Source of the DNA: Actinomycetospora cinnamomea
Lineage (GTDB): Bacteria > Actinomycetota > Actinomycetes > Mycobacteriales > Pseudonocardiaceae
Assembly: GCF_003096675.1 (NCBI RefSeq)
Contig: NZ_QEKW01000008.1
Location: 186,001-250,000 of the forward strand
Direction of reading: 5' to 3'
Length of the DNA stretch: 64,000 nucleotides
A model generated the notes under the pieces. It was not told where the DNA came from. It ran no database searches and was given only the letters and a program-made list of their open reading frames with translations. Shown piece by piece: positions 72 to 59,160 of the stretch; the stretch's first letter is position 1; each line of letters begins with the position of its first letter. Made by a program: the position numbers and the translations under genes.

Positions 72-126
72 TGTCAGCGGTGTGGCACCACGGACACTGA
101 ACGTCTGCGGTGCCACACCGCTGACA
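72..126. repeat. 55-bp palindromic element, copy 1
   Basis: Arms of 18 bp (72-89, TGTCAGCGGTGTGGCACC, and 109-126) are perfect inverted repeats around a 19-nt centre. The element lies between two convergent gene ends and could act as a bidirectional terminator, although it has no T-run. A second copy of identical length and 46/55 identity lies at 59106-59160. Two arm differences between the copies are compensated on the opposite arm, so pairing seems to be what is conserved. A REP-like or miniature mobile element is the alternative reading. Confidence 0.75.
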
Positions 127-5158: not shown

Positions 5159-6084
5159 CGATGGCCACCACCGACGTCCGGGTGTCCCGGGCCTACGCCA
5201 CCTGCGAGGCCATCACCCGCACCCAGGCCCGCAACTTCCACTACGGCATCCGCCTGCTGCCCCCGGAACGCCGCGCGGCCCTGTGCGCGGTCTACGCGCT
5301 CGCCCGCCGCATCGACGACATCGGCGACGAGCACGGGGAGACCGCGGCGAAGCGCGCCGCGCTCGCGGCGCTGCGCGCGCAGGTGGGCCTGCTGCCGGAC
5401 GGGCCGGGCGGCGTCGGCGACGACCCGGTGCTCCTTGCCGTCGCCGACGCCGCCCGCCGCCACCCGGTCCCGATCGCCGCTTTCGGCGAGCTGGTCGACG
5501 GGGTGGAGGCCGACGTCACCGCGGACGAGACCGCCGCCCGCACCGGTGCCCCCGCGGCGCCGTACGGGAGCTTCGACGACCTGCTCTGGTACTGCCGCTG
5601 CGTCGCGGGCTCGGTCGGGCGGCTCTGCCTCGGGGTCTTCGGCACCCGGACGGACCCCGCCGGAGACGCGGCGCGCCTCGCCGACACCCTCGGGCTCGCC
5701 CTCCAGCAGACCAACATCCTGCGCGACATCCGCGAGGACCTGGTGCACGGGCGGATCTACCTGCCGGCCGACGAGCTCGCCGCAGCCGGCGTCACGCTGC
5801 GCCTGCGCGGCGACGGCGCCCTCGACGACCCCGACGGGGCGCTGGCCGACCTCGTCCGCGACGCCGCCCACCGTGCCCGCGCCTTCTACGCGGAGGGCCT
5901 GGAGCTGGTGCCGCTCCTCGATCGCCGCAGCGCCGCGTGCACCACCGCGATGGCCGGCATCTACCGGCACCTGCTCGACGACATCGCCGCCGACCCCCGT
6001 CGTGTCTACGACCGGCGGCTGAGCCTGTCGGGGCGGCAGAAGGCGCTGGTCGCAGCCCGCGCGCTGACGGGGTGGGGGCGGTGA
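5155..6084 (+). CDS. hpnD: Presqualene diphosphate synthase HpnD
   Basis: 309 aa from GTG 5155, which overlaps the hpnC stop; GGAGG lies 12 nt upstream. The enzyme joins two farnesyl diphosphates head-to-head into presqualene diphosphate. Motifs: TRTQARNFHYGIRLLP at the N-terminus, ARRIDDIGDE as first aspartate motif, and QQTNILRDIREDLVHGRIYLP as second. The substrate-closing region follows in the C-terminal helices. A later in-frame ATG at 5161 would remove only two residues. Product and substrate connect it directly to HpnC and to the operon's own prenyl-diphosphate synthase. Confidence 0.92.
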   Translation: MTMATTDVRVSRAYATCEAITRTQARNFHYGIRLLPPERRAALCAVYALARRIDDIGDEHGETAAKRAALAALRAQVGLLPDGPGGVGDDPVLLAVADAARRHPVPIAAFGELVDGVEADVTADETAARTGAPAAPYGSFDDLLWYCRCVAGSVGRLCLGVFGTRTDPAGDAARLADTLGLALQQTNILRDIREDLVHGRIYLPADELAAAGVTLRLRGDGALDDPDGALADLVRDAAHRARAFYAEGLELVPLLDRRSAACTTAMAGIYRHLLDDIAADPRRVYDRRLSLSGRQKALVAARALTGWGR

Positions 6085-7490
6085 CATTCGTGGGGACATT
6101 CGTGGGGACATTCGTGGGGACACCCGGGGGGACCCCCGTCGGGACATCGGTGGTGGTGCTCGGCGGCGGGCTCGCGGGTCTGGCCGCGGCGCTGCGGTGC
6201 GCCGACGCCGGGCACGAGGTGACGCTGGTCGAGCGCCGGGCGCGTCTGGGCGGGCTGGCGGGCTCGTTCCGCCGCGGCGACGCGACGGTCGACACCGGCC
6301 AGCACGTCTTCCTGCGCTGCTGCACCGCCTACCGCGGGCTGCTCGACCGGCTCGGCGTCGCCGGTTCGGTGACCCTGCAGGACCGGCTCGACGTCACGGT
6401 CCTGCGCCCGGACGCCCGGCCGGCCCGGCTGCGCCGCGACCGGCTGCCCGCGCCGTGGCACCTCGGGCGCGCCCTGCTGCGCTACGACCCGCTGTCCTGG
6501 CGCGACCGCCTCGCCCTGCCCCGCGCCGCGGCCGCCCTGCGCCGGCTCGACCCGGCCGACGTCGCGGTCGACGCGCGGTCGTTCGGCGACTGGCTGCGCG
6601 ACCACGGGCAGGGCCCGGCGGCGGTCCGCGCGCTGTGGGACCTCATCGGCACCCCGACCCTCAACGCGCGCGCCGACGACGCCTCGCTCGCGCTCGCCGC
6701 GACCGTCTTCCGCCTCGGGCTGCTCTCCGACGCCGGCGCCGCCGACATCGGCTGGGCGGCCGTGCCGCTCGGGGCGCTGCACGACACCGCCGCGCGCCGC
6801 GCGCTGGAGGACGCGGGCGTGCGGGTGCGGCTCGGGACGACGGTGCTCGACGTCGGGGCCGACCGGCGGGTGACGGTGGCGGGCCGCGACCGGAGGCGCG
6901 ACGTCCTGCACGCCGACGCCGTGGTGTGCGCGCTGCCGGCCGAGGTCGCCGCGTCCGTGCTGCCCGCCCCGCTCGGGCCGCGGCTCGCGGCGTCGGCCGA
7001 CGCGCTCGGAGCGAGCCCGATCGTCGACGTGCACCTCGTGTGGGACCGCCCGGTGCTGCCGGTGCCGTTCGCCGCCGGGCTGGACACCGAGGTGCAGTGG
7101 GTGTTCGACCGCTCGGCGGCGCACGGCGCGCTGCCCGAGGGCGCGCAGTACCTCGTCGTGTCGCTGTCCGCTGCGGACGCCTACCTGCCGGTGGGTGCGA
7201 CGGCGCTGGTCGAGCGGTTCCGCGCCGAGCTCGCCCGGCTCCTGCCCGGAGCGCGGGAGGCCCGGCTCCTCGACGGCTTCGTCACCCGGGAGCCCCGGGC
7301 GACGTTCCGGCCGGCTCCGGGCACCGCCGCGCGGCGCCCGGTCGCCCGCACCGCGCTGCCGGGCCTGGCGCTCGCCGGCGCGTGGACCGACACCGGCTGG
7401 CCCGCGACGATGGAGGGCGCCGTGCGCAGCGGGGAGGCCGCGGCCGCGGTCGTGTCGCACCACCGGGACCGTGCGGAGGTCGCGGCGTGA
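6081..7490 (+). CDS. hpnE: Hydroxysqualene reductase HpnE (FAD)
   Basis: 469 aa from GTG 6081, again overlapping the previous stop by GTGA. HpnE is an amine-oxidase-type flavoprotein that reduces hydroxysqualene to squalene. The Rossmann motif VVVLGGGLAGLAAALRCADA is followed by an ERRARLGGLAGS loop, and the C-terminus carries the FAD-closing LAGAWTDTGWPATMEGAVRSG. The first ~24 residues are odd: a 12-bp unit repeated three times encodes TFVG-TFVG-TFVG before the conserved region. Every unit contains an in-frame GTG (6090, 6102, 6114) and more GTGs follow at 6150-6158, so the true start is uncertain. Confidence 0.9.
   Translation: MTFVGTFVGTFVGTPGGTPVGTSVVVLGGGLAGLAAALRCADAGHEVTLVERRARLGGLAGSFRRGDATVDTGQHVFLRCCTAYRGLLDRLGVAGSVTLQDRLDVTVLRPDARPARLRRDRLPAPWHLGRALLRYDPLSWRDRLALPRAAAALRRLDPADVAVDARSFGDWLRDHGQGPAAVRALWDLIGTPTLNARADDASLALAATVFRLGLLSDAGAADIGWAAVPLGALHDTAARRALEDAGVRVRLGTTVLDVGADRRVTVAGRDRRRDVLHADAVVCALPAEVAASVLPAPLGPRLAASADALGASPIVDVHLVWDRPVLPVPFAAGLDTEVQWVFDRSAAHGALPEGAQYLVVSLSAADAYLPVGATALVERFRAELARLLPGAREARLLDGFVTREPRATFRPAPGTAARRPVARTALPGLALAGAWTDTGWPATMEGAVRSGEAAAAVVSHHRDRAEVAA
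6083..6118 (+). repeat. Three perfect 12-bp tandem repeats at the hpnE start
   Basis: The unit GACATTCGTGGG occurs at 6083-6094, 6095-6106 and 6107-6118 without a mismatch. It is in frame with hpnE and begins inside the hpnD stop. Each unit adds a TFVG tetrapeptide and a possible GTG start codon. Copy-number change would keep the frame but alter the number of alternative starts and the spacing to the hpnD stop. Confidence 0.9.
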
Positions 7491-8635
7491 CCGCCGTCGT
7501 GGGCCCGACGCGCCGGCCGCCCGGGACCGATCCGGCGCTCGTCGACGTCCCCGCCGTCCTGCGACGCTGCCGGGCGCTCGTCGACCCGGCGCTGCGCGCG
7601 GCGGTGGCCCGGCTCGACCCGACCACCGGCGCGCAGGCCGGCTACCACCTCGGCTGGACCGGCCGGGACGGCGCGCCGGCTCCCGGCGGGGGCGCGGGGG
7701 GCAAGGCACTGCGCCCGGCATTGGCGCTGCTGACCGCGCGCGCGTGCGGCGCCGACGAGCGCGTCGCCGTGCCCGGCGGTGTCGCGGTCGAGCTGGTGCA
7801 CAACTTCTCGCTCCTGCACGACGACCTCATCGACGGTGACACCGAGCGCCGCCACCGGGCCACGGTCTGGGCGCTGTGGGGCGCTCCCTCGGCGATCCTC
7901 ACCGGTGACGCGCTGCTCGCGCTGGCCCAGGAGGTGCTGCTCGACGGAGCAGGGGACGCGGCGGGAGACGGGACCGCGTCGAGCTCGACCCGTCGGGGGA
8001 GCCCGGAGGCGGCGCTGCTGCTGAGCCGCACGGTGCGGGAGCTGGTCGGCGGCCAGGTCGCCGACGTGGCCTTCGCCGACCGCGACGACGTCGGCGTCGA
8101 CGAGTGCCTGGCGATGGCGCACGGCAAGACGGGGACGTTGCTGGGGACGAGCACCGAGATCGGCGCCGTCCTCGCCGCCGCGCCCGCGCCCGCGCGAGCG
8201 GCCCTGCGGACGTTCGGGGCGGAACTGGGCCTCGCGTTCCAGCTGATCGACGACCTGCTCGGCATCTGGGGCGACCCCGCCGTCACCGGCAAACCGGTGC
8301 TCGCCGACCTGCGGGAGCGCAAGAAGTCGCTGCCCGTGACGTGGGCGGTCGTGCACGGCGGCGACGCCGGCCACGAGCTCGCCGCCTGGCTCGCCCGCCC
8401 CGACGACCCCGACACCGGCCCCGACGACGAGCTGGTCCTGCGTCGCGGCGCCGCCCTGGTCGAGGCGGGCGGCGGGCGCGCCTGGGCCGGCGCCGAGGCC
8501 CGCCGCCGGCTCGCCGCGGCCGAGGCCGCGCTGGCGACGCTCGACGAGCACCTGCCCGCCACCGACGCCCCGACCCACCGGGCCCGGGCCGAGCTGGTCG
8601 CGCTCGGTCGCCATCTCGCCGACCGGGAGGCCTGA
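7487..8635 (+). CDS. Polyprenyl (farnesyl/geranylgeranyl-type) diphosphate synthase
   Basis: 382 aa, GTG start overlapping the hpnE stop. A trans-isoprenyl diphosphate synthase that would supply farnesyl diphosphate to HpnD. The chain contains GGKALRPALALL (substrate lysine/arginine), the first Asp-rich motif DDLID at residues 112-116, a GKTGTLL motif, and the second motif LIDDLLGIWGD around residue 255. A Ser/Gly-rich loop near residue 165 (GDGTASSSTRRGS) is not typical of the family. Chain length of the product cannot be decided from sequence; position inside the hopanoid operon argues for C15. Confidence 0.9.
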   Translation: MTAVVGPTRRPPGTDPALVDVPAVLRRCRALVDPALRAAVARLDPTTGAQAGYHLGWTGRDGAPAPGGGAGGKALRPALALLTARACGADERVAVPGGVAVELVHNFSLLHDDLIDGDTERRHRATVWALWGAPSAILTGDALLALAQEVLLDGAGDAAGDGTASSSTRRGSPEAALLLSRTVRELVGGQVADVAFADRDDVGVDECLAMAHGKTGTLLGTSTEIGAVLAAAPAPARAALRTFGAELGLAFQLIDDLLGIWGDPAVTGKPVLADLRERKKSLPVTWAVVHGGDAGHELAAWLARPDDPDTGPDDELVLRRGAALVEAGGGRAWAGAEARRRLAAAEAALATLDEHLPATDAPTHRARAELVALGRHLADREA

Positions 8636-8636
8636 G

Positions 8637-10550
8637 GTGACGCTGTCCCTGCCCACCCCGTCGGGCACGCGCACCGCCGCGGACGCCCTCGCGGCGGCGG
8701 TCGCCCACCTCCGCGGCCGCCAGGACGCCGCCGGCTGGTGGAAGGGCGACCTCGACACCAACGTGACCATGGACGCCGAGGACCTGCTCCTGCGCCACGT
8801 CCTCGGCATCACCGACCCCGACCGCACGGCCGGCGCCGCTCGCTGGATCCGCTCGCAGCAGCGTGCCGACGGCACCTGGGCGACCTTCCCCGGCGGCCCG
8901 GGTGACCTCTCCACCACCGTGGAGGCCTGGGTGGCGCTGCGGCTCGCCGGCGACGACCCCACCGACGGCCACATGGCGCGGGCGGCGTCGTTCGTCCGGG
9001 CCGACGGGGGCGTGGAGGGCACGCGGGTGTTCACCCGCATCTGGTTGGCGCTGGTGGGGCTCTGGAGCTGGGACGACCTGCCCGCGATGCCGCCGGAGCT
9101 GATCGGACTGCCCCGGTGGTTCCCGCTCAACGTGTCGGACTGGGCGTGCTGGGCCCGCCAGACCGTCGTCCCGCTGACCGTGGTCTGCACGCTGCAGCCG
9201 TCCTTCCCCGTGCCGTTCGGGATCGACGAGCTGCACGCCGGCACCCCGGCGCCGCCGAGGGACCCGATCCGGACCTGGTCGGGGTTCTTCCAGCGCCTCG
9301 ACGTCGCCCTGCACGCCTACGCCCGGGTCGCGCGTCGCGGCCCGCTCGCCGTGATCCGCCGCGGCGCGATGCGCAAGGCCGGCGAGTGGATCCTCGCCCG
9401 GCAGGAGGCCGACGGCGGGTGGGGCGGCATCCAGCCGCCGTGGGTCTACTCGGTGATGGCGCTCGTGCTGCTCGGCTACCCGCGCGACCACCCCTCGGTC
9501 GTCGCCGCGATCTCGGGCCTCGAGGGGTTCACGCTCACCACCGGGTCGCCCGACGGCCCCGTGATCCGGCTCGAGGCCTGCCAGTCGCCGGTGTGGGACA
9601 CGTGCCTCGCGGTCAGCGCCCTGCGCGACGGCGGGGTCGCCGCCGACGACCCCGCCGTCGTCGCCGGTGTCCGCTGGCTGCTCGACGAGCAGGTCACCGC
9701 CGACGGCGACTGGCAGGTCCGACGGCCGGACCTGCCCTCCGGCGGCTGGGCCTTCGAGTTCGCCAACGACGTCTACCCCGACACCGACGACACCGCCGAG
9801 GTCGTCCTCGCCCTGCGCCGCGCCGAGCACCCGGGCCTCCCCGACGCCGAGCGGGCACGCCTGCGCCGCGCGGTCGAGCTCGGCCTCGACTGGGCCGCCG
9901 GGATGGCCTCCGCCGACGGCGGCTGGGGCGCGTTCGACGCCGACAACACCCGCGCGCTCGTCACCCGGCTGCCGTTCTGCGACTTCGGCGAGGTCATCGA
10001 CCCGCCCTCGGCCGACGTCACCGCCCACGTCGTGGAGGCCCTGGCCGCGGAGGGGCGCGACTGCGCGCGCGGGGTGCGCTGGCTGCTCGACCACCAGGAA
10101 CCCGACGGGTCGTGGTTCGGTCGCTGGGGGGCCAACCACCTCTACGGCACCGGCGGGGTGGTCCCCGCCCTGGTCGCCGCCGGGGTCGACCCGTCGAGCC
10201 CACCGGTCCGCCGGGCCGTGCGCTGGCTGCACGACCATCAGAACGACGACGGCGGCTGGGGCGAGGACCTGCGCTCCTACCGCGACCCCGCCTGGATCGG
10301 GCGGGGCGTGTCCACCCCCTCGCAGACCGCCTGGGCCCTGCTCGCGCTCGTCGCGGCCGGCGACCGCTCGGCGGCGGCCGAGCGCGGGGTGCGGTGGCTC
10401 GTCGAGCACCAGCGCGCCGACGGCGGCTGGGACGAGGAGCAGTACACCGGCACCGGCTTCCCCGGCGACTTCTACATCGCCTACCACCTCTACCGCGTCG
10501 TCTTCCCGATCTCGGCCCTGGGCCGCTGGGTGCACGGGTGGGACCCGTGA
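8637..10550 (+). CDS. shc: Squalene-hopene cyclase
   Basis: 637 aa, full length for the family. A monotopic membrane enzyme that protonates and cyclises squalene to hopene/diplopterol. The catalytic DXDD motif is DTDD at residues 382-385 within NDVYPDTDDTAEVV. Several QW-type repeats (for example RQDAAGWWKGDLD, QRADGTWATFPGG, QEADGGWGGIQ, QNDDGGWGED, QRADGGWDEEQYTGTGFPGDF) are spread along the chain, giving the double alpha-barrel. GTG start one nt after the prenyl synthase stop. The following gene's GTG overlaps its TGA. Also known as hpnF. Confidence 0.97.
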   Translation: MTLSLPTPSGTRTAADALAAAVAHLRGRQDAAGWWKGDLDTNVTMDAEDLLLRHVLGITDPDRTAGAARWIRSQQRADGTWATFPGGPGDLSTTVEAWVALRLAGDDPTDGHMARAASFVRADGGVEGTRVFTRIWLALVGLWSWDDLPAMPPELIGLPRWFPLNVSDWACWARQTVVPLTVVCTLQPSFPVPFGIDELHAGTPAPPRDPIRTWSGFFQRLDVALHAYARVARRGPLAVIRRGAMRKAGEWILARQEADGGWGGIQPPWVYSVMALVLLGYPRDHPSVVAAISGLEGFTLTTGSPDGPVIRLEACQSPVWDTCLAVSALRDGGVAADDPAVVAGVRWLLDEQVTADGDWQVRRPDLPSGGWAFEFANDVYPDTDDTAEVVLALRRAEHPGLPDAERARLRRAVELGLDWAAGMASADGGWGAFDADNTRALVTRLPFCDFGEVIDPPSADVTAHVVEALAAEGRDCARGVRWLLDHQEPDGSWFGRWGANHLYGTGGVVPALVAAGVDPSSPPVRRAVRWLHDHQNDDGGWGEDLRSYRDPAWIGRGVSTPSQTAWALLALVAAGDRSAAAERGVRWLVEHQRADGGWDEEQYTGTGFPGDFYIAYHLYRVVFPISALGRWVHGWDP

Positions 10551-12043
10551 GGCCCGCCGTCGTGTGCGCCCCGCTGCGGGTCGAGCGGCGCGCGCTGGGG
10601 CGTCACGTGGGCCGGGCGGCCGTCGCGCGCTCCGGCCCGGGCCCCGCCCGGTCCGGCGCCACCGCGCGCCGCCTCGCCGCCGCGGGGCCCCGCCCGGTGC
10701 TCGTGGCCGGCGTGGCGGGCGGCCTCGACGCCGCCCTCGCCCCCGGGGACCTCGTGGTGGCCGACGAGGTGCGCGCCGAGGGCCGCGCGCCCGTCCCGGT
10801 GCCGTCCGCCACCGCGCTCGCCGCCGCACTGCGTGCTCTCGGCCTGACCGTGCACGTCGGCCCGGTCCACTCCGCGCGGCGCCCGGTCGTGGGGGCCCGT
10901 CGTCGGGCCCTGGCCGCGCAGGGCGCGCTCGCGGTCGACACCGAGTCCGCGTGGCTCGCCGCCGGCGCGGCGGGCGGACCGTTCGCCGTGGTCCGCGCGG
11001 TGGTCGACACACCGGCTGCGCCCCTGGTCCACCCGGGCACGGTGCGGCGCGGCGTCGCGGCGCTGCGCGTGCTGCGCCGGTCGGTGCCCGCCCTTGCCAC
11101 GTGGGTGGCGGCCTGCGGCGCCCGCGAGGTGCTGCTCGCCGAGCCCCGCTCGTTCTGTGCGGGCGTGGACCGGGCGATCGCGACCGTCGAGCGGGCCCTC
11201 GAGCGGCACGGTCCCCCGGTGTACGTGCGGCGCCAGATCGTGCACAACGGCCACGTCGTCGCCGACCTCGAGCGCCGGGGTGCAGTGTTCGTGCGCGAGG
11301 TCGACGAGGTGCCGCCGGGCTCGGTGGTCGTCCTCGCCGCCCACGGTGTGGCACCCGCGGTCCGAGCCGCGGCGAGCGCGCGGCGCCTCGCCGTCGTCGA
11401 CGCGACGTGCCCGCTGGTCGCCAAGGTCCACGCCGGGGTGCGCCGGCAGGCCGAGCGCGACGCGACCGTCTTCCTCATCGGCCACGCCGACCACGAGGAG
11501 GTCGAGGGCACCCTCGGTGAGGCGCCGGAGCGGGTGGTCGTCGTCGGCAGCGTCGCCGAGGCGGAGGCCGTCAGCGCGCCCGACCCGCACCGGGTGGCGT
11601 CCGCCGTGCAGACCACGCTGGCGCTCGACGAGGCCGAGTCGATCGCCGCGGTGCTGCGCCGGCGCTTCCCCGCGCTCGTCGAGCCGCGGTCGGCCGACAT
11701 CTGCTACGCCACCACCAACCGGCAGGCCGCGGTGCGCGCCGTCGCCGCCGAGGCCGACCGGCTCGTGGTCGTCGGATCGCCGAACTCCTCGAACTCGGTG
11801 CGGCTGGTCGAGGTCGCCGCGCGCGCCGGCGCCGACGCCCGCCGCGTCGACCACGCGGACGAGCTCGACCTCGCCTGGCTCGCCGGCGCCCCGCGCGTCG
11901 CCGTCACCGCCGGGGCGTCCGCCCCGGACCGCCTGGTCGACGGCGTCGTCGACCTCCTGCGCGGGCTCGGCCCCGTCACCGTGACGCCCCGGTCGGCCAC
12001 GACCGAGGACGTCCGCTTCACCCTCCCCAAGGAAGTGAGCTGA
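10547..12043 (+). CDS. Fusion of HpnG-like nucleosidase/phosphorylase and IspH (HMBPP reductase)
   Basis: 498 aa in one uninterrupted frame. Residues 1 to ~190 resemble the hopanoid-associated phosphorylase HpnG of the purine nucleoside phosphorylase fold: VAGVAGGLD..APGDLVVADEV and the AVDTESAWLA motif with the nucleoside-binding Glu. HpnG removes adenine from adenosylhopane. Residues ~193-498 are a complete IspH: cluster cysteines C204 (SFCAGVDRA), C288 (DATCPLV) and C386 (CYATTNRQ), catalytic EVEGT with its Glu, histidines in VHNGHVV, AAHGV and GHADHEE, and the SSNSVRL loop. The GTG overlaps the shc stop. A second, stand-alone ispH lies at 56171-57154. The fusion joins the last step of isoprenoid precursor supply to side-chain processing. 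Confidence 0.88.
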   Translation: MRPAVVCAPLRVERRALGRHVGRAAVARSGPGPARSGATARRLAAAGPRPVLVAGVAGGLDAALAPGDLVVADEVRAEGRAPVPVPSATALAAALRALGLTVHVGPVHSARRPVVGARRRALAAQGALAVDTESAWLAAGAAGGPFAVVRAVVDTPAAPLVHPGTVRRGVAALRVLRRSVPALATWVAACGAREVLLAEPRSFCAGVDRAIATVERALERHGPPVYVRRQIVHNGHVVADLERRGAVFVREVDEVPPGSVVVLAAHGVAPAVRAAASARRLAVVDATCPLVAKVHAGVRRQAERDATVFLIGHADHEEVEGTLGEAPERVVVVGSVAEAEAVSAPDPHRVASAVQTTLALDEAESIAAVLRRRFPALVEPRSADICYATTNRQAAVRAVAAEADRLVVVGSPNSSNSVRLVEVAARAGADARRVDHADELDLAWLAGAPRVAVTAGASAPDRLVDGVVDLLRGLGPVTVTPRSATTEDVRFTLPKEVS

Positions 12044-12046
12044 GAA

Positions 12047-13060
12047 GTGGGTTTCCCCCTGCGCCAGAGCATCCGCCTCGGCACCTACCTGGCGGCGCAG
12101 AAGCTGCGCGGGAACGAGAGGTTCCCGATCCTGGTCGAGCTCGAGCCGCTGTTCGCCTGCAACCTCAAGTGCGCGGGCTGCGGCAAGATCGCGCAGCCGG
12201 CGGCGCTGCTCAAGCAGCGGATGCCGGTCGAGCAGGCCGTGGGCGCGGTCGAGGAGTCCGGCGCGCCGATGGTGTCGATCGCCGGCGGCGAGCCCCTGAT
12301 GCACCCGCAGATCGACGAGATCACCCGCCGGCTGCTGGACCGCAACAAGATCGTCTTCCTGTGCACGAACGCGCTGCTGCTGCCGAAGCACCTGCACCGG
12401 TTCGCGCCGCACAAGAACTTCGCGTGGATGGTGCACATCGACGGCCTGCGGGAGCGTCACGACGCGTCGGTGCGCAAGGCCGGCGGGTTCGACGCCGCGG
12501 TCGAGGCGATCAGGCAGGCGCAGGCGGCGGGGTTCAGGGTGGCCACGAACACCACGTTCTTCGACACCGACACCCCGCAGGACGTCGTCGACGTCCTGGA
12601 CTACCTCAACGACGACCTCGGCGTCGACTGCATGCAGATCTCCCCGGCCTACGCCTACGAGCGGGCGCCCGACCAGGAGCACTGGCTCGCCGTCGACCAG
12701 ACCCGCGAGCTGTTCCGTGCGGCGTTCGCCGACGGACGGCGGGAGCGCTGGCGGCTGAACCACTCGCCGCTGTTCCTCGACTTCCTCGAGGGCCGCCGCG
12801 ACTTCCAGTGCACCGCGTGGGCCATCCCGTCGTACTCCCTGCTCGGCTGGCAGAAGCCCTGCTACCTGCTCGACGACGGCTACACGGAGACCTACCAGCA
12901 GCTCCTCGACGAGACCGACTGGTCGTCCTACGGCCGGGGCCGCAACCCCAGGTGCGAGAACTGCATGGCCCACTGCGGGTACGAGCCGTCGGCCGTGCTC
13001 GCGACGATGGGCTCGCTGCGGGAGTCGATCCGCGCCGCCAGGGACACGGTGGGGGCGTGA
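12047..13060 (+). CDS. hpnH: Adenosylhopane synthase HpnH (radical SAM)
   Basis: 337 aa. Uses a 5'-deoxyadenosyl radical to attach adenosine to diploptene, giving adenosylhopane. The 4Fe-4S cluster motif CNLKCAGC has its cysteines at residues 38, 42 and 45. Other family features are FPILVELEPLFACN before it, the SAM loop SIAGGEPLMHP, and a C-terminal cysteine group RCENCMAHCGYEPSAVL. It begins with GTG three nt after the fusion gene's stop and ends the coupled hopanoid run. No hpnO aminotransferase or hpnP methylase follows, so further side-chain steps must be encoded elsewhere or be absent. Confidence 0.95.
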   Translation: MGFPLRQSIRLGTYLAAQKLRGNERFPILVELEPLFACNLKCAGCGKIAQPAALLKQRMPVEQAVGAVEESGAPMVSIAGGEPLMHPQIDEITRRLLDRNKIVFLCTNALLLPKHLHRFAPHKNFAWMVHIDGLRERHDASVRKAGGFDAAVEAIRQAQAAGFRVATNTTFFDTDTPQDVVDVLDYLNDDLGVDCMQISPAYAYERAPDQEHWLAVDQTRELFRAAFADGRRERWRLNHSPLFLDFLEGRRDFQCTAWAIPSYSLLGWQKPCYLLDDGYTETYQQLLDETDWSSYGRGRNPRCENCMAHCGYEPSAVLATMGSLRESIRAARDTVGA

Positions 13061-56170: not shown

Positions 56171-57154
56171 TCAGCGCACCGCCTGGGGCTTCATGTCGCG
56201 CTTGAGCTCGCGCGGCAGCGAGAAGGTCAGCTTCTCGTTGGCGGTGGTGATCTCCTCGACGTCGGCCCAGCCGCGGTCGGCCAGCCAGTGCAGCACCTCG
56301 CCGACGAGGATCTCCGGGACCGAAGCGCCGCTGGTGACGCCGACGGTCGTGACGCCCTCGAGCCACGACGCGTCGATCTCGCCCGCATGGTCGACCAGGT
56401 ACGCCGCCGACGCGCCGGCCTGCAGGGCGACCTCGACGAGGCGCACCGAGTTCGAGGAGTTGCGCGAGCCGACGACCAGCACGAGGTCGCACTCGGGTGC
56501 CATCTGCTTCACCGCGACCTGGCGGTTCTGCGTCGCGTAGCAGATGTCGTCGGACGGCGGGTCGGCCAGCGACGGGAAGCGCTCGCGCAGCGCGCGGACG
56601 GTCTCGAGCGTCTCGTCCACCGACAGCGTCGTCTGCGAGAGCCAGATGACCTTCTCGGGGTCGCGCACGGTGACCTGGTCGACCGCGCCGGGCCCGTCGA
56701 CGAGCTGCACGTGCTCGGGCGCCTCGCCCGCCGTGCCCTCGACCTCCTCGTGGCCCTCGTGGCCGATGAGCAGGATGTCGTAGTCGTCGCGGGCGAAGCG
56801 CTTGGCCTCCTGGTGGACCTTGGTCACCAGCGGGCAGGTCGCGTCGACGGTGCGCAGCTCGCGGGAGGCGGCCTGGGCGTGCACGGCCGGGGAGACGCCG
56901 TGGGCGGAGAAGACGACGGTGGCGCCCTCGGGCACCTCGTCGGTCTCCTCGACGAACACCGCGCCGCGCTCGGCCAGCGTCTTCACGACGTGGCGGTTGT
57001 GCACGATCTCCTTGCGGACGTACACCGGGGCGCCGTAGGTCTCCAACGCCTTCTCGACCGCCACCACGGCCCGGTCGACACCCGCGCAGTAGCCGCGGGG
57101 CTTCGCGAGCAGCACCCGCGGGGTGGGCTCGCCTGCCTCGTGCTCACCGGTCAT
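56171..57154 (-). CDS. ispH: 4-hydroxy-3-methylbut-2-enyl diphosphate reductase (stand-alone)
   Basis: 327 aa, final enzyme of the MEP pathway giving IPP and DMAPP. Cluster cysteines in [12 protein letters not shown] (Cys23), [11 protein letters not shown] and CYATQNRQ; catalytic EVEGT and the histidines in [13 protein letters not shown] and GHEGHEE are all present. [14 protein letters not shown] binds the diphosphate. ATG 57154, immediately after a -10 box and with GGGAGG too close to act as ribosome-binding site, so leaderless. This is the chromosomal housekeeping copy in the usual order with the lipid-droplet gene, xseA and xseB; the second IspH domain is in the hopanoid operon fusion. Confidence 0.96.
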
Positions 57155-57161
57155 ACCTCCC

Positions 57162-57167
57162 AGCGTA
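57162..57167 (-). promoter_or_regulatory. -10 box of ispH, leaderless type
   Basis: On the minus strand TACGCT is followed by 7 nt and the ATG of ispH. This decides the start at 57154 against the longer open frame reaching 57223. Confidence 0.5.
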
Positions 57168-57252
57168 CGGGCGATCCACATCACCGATCGGCCGTCGGCG
57201 GCCGTGGGTGGTCGTGCGCACATCGAGCGCCGGCTGGTGGCACCCTGTGCAC

Positions 57253-59105: not shown

Positions 59106-59160
59106 TGTCAGCGGTGGGGCATCACGGACACTGGGTGTCAGCGATGGCCCACCGCTGACA
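59106..59160. repeat. 55-bp palindromic element, copy 2, between xseA and xseB
   Basis: Same length and layout as the element at 72-126, with 46 of 55 bases identical. Left arm TGTCAGCGGTGGGGCATC at 59106-59123, right arm at 59143-59160, 17 of 18 pairs. The centre holds a further small palindrome, GACAC-TGG-GTGTC. It occupies almost the whole gap between xseA (stop 59096) and xseB (start 59170), so it would form a hairpin inside the shared transcript and may lower xseB expression. Confidence 0.75.

Follow-up and report, generated by a model that had tools for sequence, protein, structure and literature searches.

In Actinomycetospora cinnamomea, a single gene between the squalene-hopene cyclase gene and hpnH joins an HpnG-like nucleosidase/phosphorylase domain to a complete IspH, the enzyme that makes the building blocks of hopanoids. 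The fusion is a real, in-frame gene, it recurs in many relatives, and it exists beside a second, stand-alone IspH. Its product is probably one bifunctional protein of the hopanoid operon, in which the IspH half would be a pathway-dedicated paralogue that boosts isoprenoid supply.

The fusion gene and its two halves

Within the 64,000-nucleotide stretch that was analyzed (the window), the fusion gene occupies positions 10547..12043 of the forward strand and encodes 498 amino acids in one frame. Residues 1-190 (10547..11116) constitute the HpnG-like half, and residues 191-498 (11117..12043) the complete IspH half. The 3' end of the squalene-hopene cyclase gene (8637..10550; TIGR01507, 708 bits) overlaps the start of the fusion by 4 bases, and hpnH, which encodes the adenosyl-hopene transferase (12047..13060; TIGR03470, 500.2 bits), lies on its other side. 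Further upstream on the same strand are a polyprenyl diphosphate synthase gene (7550..8635; PF00348, 169.7 bits), hpnE, encoding hydroxysqualene dehydroxylase (6150..7490; TIGR03467, 415.3 bits), and an hpnD-like presqualene diphosphate synthase gene (5215..6084), for which TIGR03465 is the best family at 262.5 bits, below its cut-off of 278.6. The starts of these three genes are estimates from the family matches, within open frames that open at 6197, 4821, and 4129, respectively. The initial annotation had read a nucleosidase-type domain and an IspH in one frame, a reading upheld here with both domains complete. Both halves are under purifying selection, with dN/dS values of 0.13-0.45 for the HpnG half and 0.07-0.23 for the IspH half (8 pairs tried).

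The HpnG half has the nucleosidase/phosphorylase (MTAN/PNP) fold, with residues of the E12, E174, and D197 type of E. coli MTAN, of which E12 and D197 are named in PDB titles. Its catalytic-type residues, E13, D131, E133, and D154, are conserved among the relatives, with exceptions: E13 is absent from L059 and L111, where the first-half matches begin late, and L114 carries E in place of D154. Apart from IspH models, the HpnG model TIGR03468 is the best curated family for the protein, which scores 81.5 bits as a whole and 85.8 bits as the half alone, short of the cut-off of 187.1; it is therefore named HpnG-like rather than HpnG, and its function rests on context and fold. Six unfused relatives from Streptomyces, Actinacidiphila, Saccharopolyspora, and Myxococcota, scored from the match start with the start codon unchecked, also fall below this cut-off (57.3-89.7 bits). 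The only other match to the HpnG model in the genome is fitted best by AMP nucleosidase. Given its place in a hopanoid operon and adjoining hpnH, the half is the operon's HpnG candidate, which would strip adenine from HpnH's product, adenosylhopane.

The IspH half scores 288.6 bits against TIGR00216 (cut-off 187.85; model positions 2-280 of 282) and 291.9 bits against PF02401 (cut-off 24.5; positions 1-266 of 267), while the fused protein, at 407.9 bits, does not reach the 444-bit cut-off of NF002189. Its cluster cysteines are C204, C288, and C386, and the further site residues are H233, N234, H266, H316, E318, Q355, T356, T357, S414, S415, N416, and S458; the HMBPP-binding residues were assigned by the E. 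coli IspH numbering, of which E126 and T167 also appear in PDB titles. Across the 15 cluster and substrate positions checked, 57 fused IspHs and 22 housekeeping ones agree in their commonest letter without exception, and the fused sequences show no variation at 11 of them. Seven positions (203, 211, 305, 352, 359, 455, and 459) distinguish most fused from most housekeeping IspHs. The half is predicted to be a working [4Fe-4S] HMBPP reductase beside the housekeeping enzyme. The altered role for the iron-sulfur domain raised in the initial annotation, and with it a neofunctionalized IspH half, finds no support, since the 15 cluster and substrate positions carry the housekeeping letters.

A second IspH and the spread of the fusion

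The genome also encodes a stand-alone canonical (housekeeping-type) IspH on the reverse strand (56171..57223; NF002189, 590.9 bits, cut-off 444), which is 54-55% identical to the fused half. This gene lies inside the window and had been overlooked in the initial annotation. At least two IspH places were found in 38 of 41 fused genomes and a second IspH in 32 of the 32 near-complete ones, which rules out the fused copy as the cell's only IspH; the three genomes with a single match are 79-86% complete. The 41 comprise the 38 fused genomes of the order sample minus G089, whose match covers residues 5-366 only and which is excluded from the IspH, IspG, and DXS counts, plus four sisters of the same genus. 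Since a separate ordinary IspH is retained, the fused copy looks dedicated to hopanoids.

Both trees described here (IspH and HpnG) were inferred by quick IQ-TREE runs without bootstrap, drawn with midpoint rooting, and contain many weak branches. The IspH tree (n = 90) included 57 of 94 fused and 33 of 47 solo IspHs after removal of near-copies. The 22 housekeeping IspHs lie on a branch of length 0.55 with an SH-aLRT of 98, opposite the 57 fused and 10 solo sequences; one divergent solo IspH (L084) groups with the housekeeping ones. The fused label needs 3 changes, and thus the tree does not establish the fused IspHs as a single clade on their own. One sequence labelled Melainabacteria (L120) is placed among actinobacterial ones, which may reflect mis-binning or transfer. 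Three of the 10 solo IspHs on the fused side, whose neighbors were partly scanned, adjoin other terpenoid or MEP genes; the L178 row reads terpene cyclase, P450, polyprenyl synthase, solo IspH, DXS, and IspG. The best reading is that the fused IspH belongs to a second IspH class distinct from the housekeeping enzyme, which points to a terpenoid-linked class in Actinomycetota that is mostly locked to the hopanoid pathway through fusion.

The best 80 of 380 confirmed relatives, found with an alignment of fused HpnG halves, comprise 59 loci fused in frame, 20 unfused, and one (L124) that is undecidable because its frame runs off the contig; this tally is corrected, L124 having been scored as unfused in the original count and in the HpnG tree. 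The 59 include L048 (Pseudonocardia sp. CNS-139), whose frame is broken later, inside the IspH half. Recurrence in 59 loci rules out a frameshift or assembly artefact, although it is no estimate of prevalence, since the 80 are the best relatives of a fused-half alignment. Of 298 genomes sampled from the order, at least 37 contain a full-length fusion match; the 36 intact full-length fusions, together with the partial one of G089, all fall within the 51 hpnH-bearing genomes. The same 5 of 18 genomes of the genus carry both the fusion and hpnH. The degraded fusion G080/L186, with H at D154, an IspH match that stops at 288 of 308, and a long branch, belongs to a genome without an hpnH match. The fusion, whose extent the initial annotation had left as a question, is thus widespread; its description as unexpected has to be qualified, as the fused IspH is one of two paralogues and many actinobacteria with hpnH share the architecture.

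Among the 51 hpnH-bearing genomes, 14 have no fusion among the matches listed, one of which (G110) has hpnH at a contig edge, and in the Streptomyces and Saccharopolyspora loci HpnG is unfused and the locus DNA examined lacks an IspH; the fusion is therefore dispensable for the pathway. On the HpnG tree, built from 67 of 94 fused and 20 of 21 unfused halves after removal of near-copies, the distribution of fused and unfused forms requires 6 changes, 3 of them forced by starred branches; repeated loss or gain of the trait is therefore probable.

Isoprenoid supply and alternative explanations

In 14 of the 41 fused genomes, the fusion has a second DXS no more than ~7 kb away. For the other 27, among them A. 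cinnamomea and the four sister genomes, the matches listed include none nearby. IspG has one match each in 39 of the 41, is doubled in none of those 39, and in none of them shares a contig with the fusion at a distance of 30 kb or less, and it was thus rejected as a third cluster-borne MEP gene. With 27 genomes lacking a listed nearby DXS and IspG never doubled, the supply argument is incomplete. In Streptomyces hopanoid clusters, ispG and dxs might be expected; in S. lavendulae (L112), a scan of four open frames that lie downstream from hpnH gave an aminotransferase, a peptidase, and two without a match at 1e-10. In Frankia alni, FRAAL1433, annotated as IspH, and the cyclase FRAAL1432 were 5.12-fold and 4.23-fold more abundant, respectively, on propionate than on fumarate, according to Table 2b of PMC10252897. 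FRAAL1433 is numbered directly after the cyclase. Frankia loci, L055 and L068 among them, make it likely that FRAAL1433 is fused as well.

In the proposed mechanism, the fused copy would raise the last MEP step during hopanoid production, while the second DXS, found near the fusion in a third of fused relatives, would raise the first. The fusion would fix the co-expression and stoichiometry of both halves, and the linkage may hold the supply enzyme close to the hopanoid enzymes. Co-localization or shared regulation, among the meanings first suggested for the fusion, is still the likeliest.

It is also conceivable, albeit unlikely, that the fusion is neutral, the stop between adjacent operon genes having been lost with the function of each half unchanged and no gain from linkage beyond co-transcription. 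Operon neighbors that overlap or almost abut, the sufficiency of unfused HpnG in Streptomyces and Saccharopolyspora, and the repeated label changes on the HpnG tree are all consistent with this. However, were linkage neutral, the two halves would be expected to come apart again often, and an unfused HpnG plus an IspH in the locus DNA is seen in none of the 80 named loci; moreover, the junction residues W186, A198, and P200 are conserved in 34 of 34 sequences. Less probable still is a built-in coupling device, in which adenosylhopane, ribosylhopane, or adenine bound to the HpnG half would alter how active the IspH half is or where it sits at the membrane; if true, the far end of hopanoid synthesis would directly tune the last step of isoprenoid supply.

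The junction bears equally on whether one frame gives two proteins, the full-length product and a separate IspH arising by internal initiation. Among 83 distinct junctions from the 94 fused loci (the others being duplicates or without the placing motif), 60 have a potential start codon (ATG, GTG, or TTG) in frame at residues ~176-200, 18 of them with a match to the Shine-Dalgarno consensus at 4 or more bases. Nevertheless, 23 junctions contain no such codon, and reinitiation is therefore not the general rule; the start codons occupy no fixed position, and the three junction residues are conserved as protein. For GTG187 of the window, where reinitiation would by the initial annotation have spoken against a single fused product, no Shine-Dalgarno-like match was found. 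Two proteins from one frame are thus very unlikely.

The reduction of ribosylhopane to bacteriohopanetetrol is, by established knowledge, chemistry foreign to IspH. That the IspH half has turned to such side-chain chemistry is scarcely credible: it would suit linkage to a ribosylhopane-making enzyme, and a passage of PMC12583986 describes the enzyme for this step as not established, but the 15 site positions share the commonest letters of housekeeping IspH, some genomes have hpnG and hpnH without a fused IspH, and solo IspHs on the fused side of the tree adjoin other terpenoid genes.

Implications and comparison with known systems

A bifunctional protein with a dedicated IspH, the preferred reading, would have two practical consequences. 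Proteins annotated only as IspH in these bacteria may conceal a hopanoid HpnG, and since the curated HpnG model is not passed by the relatives tested, hpnG-based surveys of side-chain hopanoids could miss them. In addition, IspH is, according to passages of PMC13001223, sensitive to oxygen and a bottleneck of the MEP pathway, and thus a natural dedicated extra copy could be useful for terpenoid engineering. In full-text searches of the open-licence literature on the fusion and on encapsulin terpene clusters, no title, abstract opening, or passage inspected described an HpnG-IspH fusion, and the passages retrieved from PMC5462960, PMC12583986, PMC10663253, PMC13001223, PMC8951365, PMC4447401, PMC8346489, PMC9686282, and PMC10252897 contain none.

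The fused half shares the fold, cluster cysteines, and substrate residues of canonical IspH (TIGR00216/PF02401) and lies above the curated cut-offs; it differs in being the C-terminal half of a hopanoid-operon protein and a second genome copy, in a protein below the NF002189 cut-off that the stand-alone copy exceeds, and in its separate position on the tree. With HpnG (TIGR03468), the fused protein has in common the MTAN/PNP fold and the same shc-hpnH slot as the unfused Streptomyces and Saccharopolyspora HpnG, whereas it falls below the curated cut-off and bears an IspH half. The bifunctional IspH-30S ribosomal protein S1 (PRK00087, NF000907) also contains IspH within a longer chain, and its model positions 1-278 match the fused IspH half; however, partner, order, and context differ, and the fused protein reaches 200.8 bits against a cut-off of 624. 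Terpenoid gene clusters such as L178 likewise place extra MEP genes alongside a terpenoid pathway, but their IspH is unjoined to a tailoring enzyme. The IspDF fusion, as described in a passage of PMC13001223, similarly joins one MEP enzyme to another at non-consecutive steps; both of its partners belong to the MEP pathway, whereas the partners here stand near opposite ends of hopanoid synthesis.

Distribution of the fusion and its junction

The gene joining an HpnG-like half to an IspH half (window 10547-12043, forward strand) is not a local accident. It occurs in 5 of the 18 genomes of the genus, and a full-length match is present in at least 37 of 298 genomes sampled evenly from the order, with one further genome (G089) whose match is limited to residues 5-366; the 34 distinct fusion proteins extracted are each encoded in a single frame. 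An alignment made from fused HpnG halves served as query against named genomes; of 380 relatives confirmed, the best 80 were classified, a sample biased to fused loci by the design of this query. In it, 59 loci have the two halves fused in frame, 20 have them unfused, and one runs off a contig end (L124, reclassified). Examples of fused loci are those of Pseudonocardia, Amycolatopsis, Nocardia, Frankia, Plantactinospora, Modestobacter, Kribbella, Thermomonospora, Actinomadura, Microtetraspora, and Thermoleophilia/Solirubrobacterales bins, while Streptomyces, Kitasatospora, Actinacidiphila, Saccharopolyspora, Catenulispora, and two Myxococcota bins are among the unfused. The frame is broken within the IspH half in the draft assembly of Pseudonocardia sp. 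CNS-139 (L048:7266-7269), by error or in reality.

Reinitiation at a GTG near residue 187, which would yield two proteins, had been named as an alternative to a single product. At least one in-frame ATG, GTG, or TTG is found at residues ~176-200 in 60 of 83 distinct junctions, 18 of them with a Shine-Dalgarno consensus match of at least four bases. However, such codons are absent in the other 23, their positions differ between junctions, and no consensus match of four or more bases accompanies GTG187 of the window; internal initiation is thus not the general rule, although it may occur in single species.

Five genomes of the genus each carry the palindromic interspersed repeat TGTCAGCGGTGnnnCACCGCTGACA (up to two mismatches) at 13-44 places, compared with none in a backward-read control, and its copies are often 30 bp apart (window 72-96, 102-126, and 59136-59160; L004:2632-2721). 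Three 30-bp copies lie in frame within the HpnG half of the fusion in genome G013, and one lies within the fusion gene of G002; the repeat is a palindromic element tolerated within coding sequence. A different in-frame duplication, of 57 bases spaced 75 bases apart and containing an inner palindrome, is found in the HpnG half of G009 (L003:1391-1522), in the loop that follows ~residue 119, the same place as the G013 repeats.

Identity and conservation of the two halves

Besides IspH, the best curated family for the fused protein, in its N-terminal half, is HpnG; the only other HpnG-model match in the genome has AMP nucleosidase as its best family. Since this half scores 81.5-85.8 bits with the HpnG model TIGR03468, below the cut-off of 187.1, and six unfused relatives (two Streptomyces, one Actinacidiphila, one Saccharopolyspora, and two Myxococcota) also fall under it at 57.3-89.7 bits, the half is named HpnG-like, and its predicted function is taken from operon context and fold. 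Eight HpnG-like proteins adjoining hopanoid genes (loci L112, L107, L106, L080, L066, L056, L061, and L050) score 57-90 bits, and therefore annotation by the TIGR03468 cut-off would miss them.

Among 89 distinct fused HpnG halves, D131 and E133 are kept in all, and E13 and D154 in 87 each. D131, E133, and D154, which we take to be catalytic-type residues of the MTA/SAH nucleosidase fold, align with the corresponding stretch of that family. The three cluster cysteines initially noted in the IspH half are kept in 57/57 representative fused sequences. Among 15 positions of the cluster and substrate sites, these sequences show no variation at 11, while each of the remaining four is kept in 54-56 of them, and the commonest letters at all 15 are identical between the 57 fused and 22 housekeeping IspHs. 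Over the eight pairs tried, dN/dS ranges from 0.13 to 0.45 in the HpnG half and from 0.07 to 0.23 in the IspH half; in the two pairs that include the window protein, the HpnG half changes faster, with 60-65% identity versus 85% for the IspH half. Judged by their sequences, both halves look alive.

IspH copies and their gene company

A stand-alone IspH lies in the window at 56171-57223 on the reverse strand, scoring 590.9 bits with NF002189 (cut-off 444), compared with 407.9 bits for the fused protein. At least two IspH places are present in 38 of 41 fused genomes, including all 32 near-complete ones; the remaining three are 79-86% complete. In a quick tree of 90 IspHs, the 22 housekeeping sequences are set off by a branch of length 0.55 (SH-aLRT 98), and the 57 fused sequences group on the opposite side with ten solo IspHs, i.e., those not joined to HpnG (L174-L181, L192, and L193). 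By this position the fused half belongs to a second kind of IspH, most members of which are fused, though some stand alone. The housekeeping IspHs are joined on the tree by a solo IspH from a Thermoleophilia bin that is very divergent (L084:9641-10543; branch length 1.73) and whose gene lies ~2 kb downstream from a fused one.

The fusion is carried by 37 of 51 hpnH-bearing genomes of the order sample (36 full-length plus G089), with none among the matches listed for the other 14; G080 is the sole fused genome there that lacks an hpnH match, and its fusion copy is degraded. Within the genus, the 5 of 18 genomes with the fusion are also those with hpnH. At least 14 of the 41 fused genomes have a second DXS no more than ~7 kb away from the fusion, at ~1 kb in seven and at ~6 kb in seven others; in G096, one of these genomes, it is a fragment at a contig end. 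For the window's genus, no DXS close to the fusion is among the matches listed. IspG gives one match each in 39 of the 41, and was not found near the fusion in these 39. Neighbourhoods were scanned in part for three of the ten solo IspHs: that of L178 stands in a row with a terpene cyclase, P450, polyprenyl synthase, DXS, and IspG; that of L180 is preceded by two family 2B encapsulin shell genes and a polyprenyl synthase; and that of L181 is directly followed by DXS. Because of this company, namely hpnH, nearby DXS, and the terpenoid or MEP neighbours of solo members, the second kind looks like a terpenoid-dedicated IspH, joined to HpnG in hopanoid operons.

Along one open frame, the DXS of the genus (G000:C1:105559-107496) aligns with its model as two separate pieces, 4-471 and 496-615, which suggests that a few dozen residues are inserted; in the four sister genomes as well, the end of the first piece is at 471-472.

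Expression and proposed function

According to Table 2b of PMC10252897, a proteome of nitrogen-fixing Frankia alni, FRAAL1433 (annotated IspH) is 5.12-fold and the squalene-hopene cyclase FRAAL1432, adjacent in numbering, 4.23-fold up in propionate- versus fumarate-fed cells; PMC8951365 assigns FRAAL1427-1435 to the squalene lipid cluster. At two loci of Frankia, L055 and L068, the cyclase match is followed by the fusion; FRAAL1433, identified here by its annotation and numbering, is presumably fused as well, judging from such loci.

In the pathway as excerpted from PMC12583986, HpnH would place the adenosyl group onto hopene, after which the HpnG half would take off adenine. The IspH half may provide extra capacity at the last MEP step, matched to hopanoid demand, and the second DXS may likewise raise the first step in a third of relatives. 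We infer both the enzyme activities and the gain from covalent linkage; the linkage itself is suggested to be dispensable for the side-chain pathway, since Streptomyces and Saccharopolyspora loci are unfused. Foldseek with a model of window 10547-12043 returned as top match PDB 9ql0, titled as E. coli IspH crystallized with adenosine hemisulfate; nucleoside binding by IspH, if true, would bear on coupling to an adenine-releasing partner.

No description of an HpnG-IspH fusion was found in the excerpts returned by full-text searches of open-licence literature. Both enzymes probably keep their known jobs, which is the ordinary side of the finding; its interest lies in a fusion that reaches across the pathway and is widely distributed. 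Each domain is known, and what is new is that they are joined, together with an IspH of a second kind that has ties to hopanoids and terpenes.
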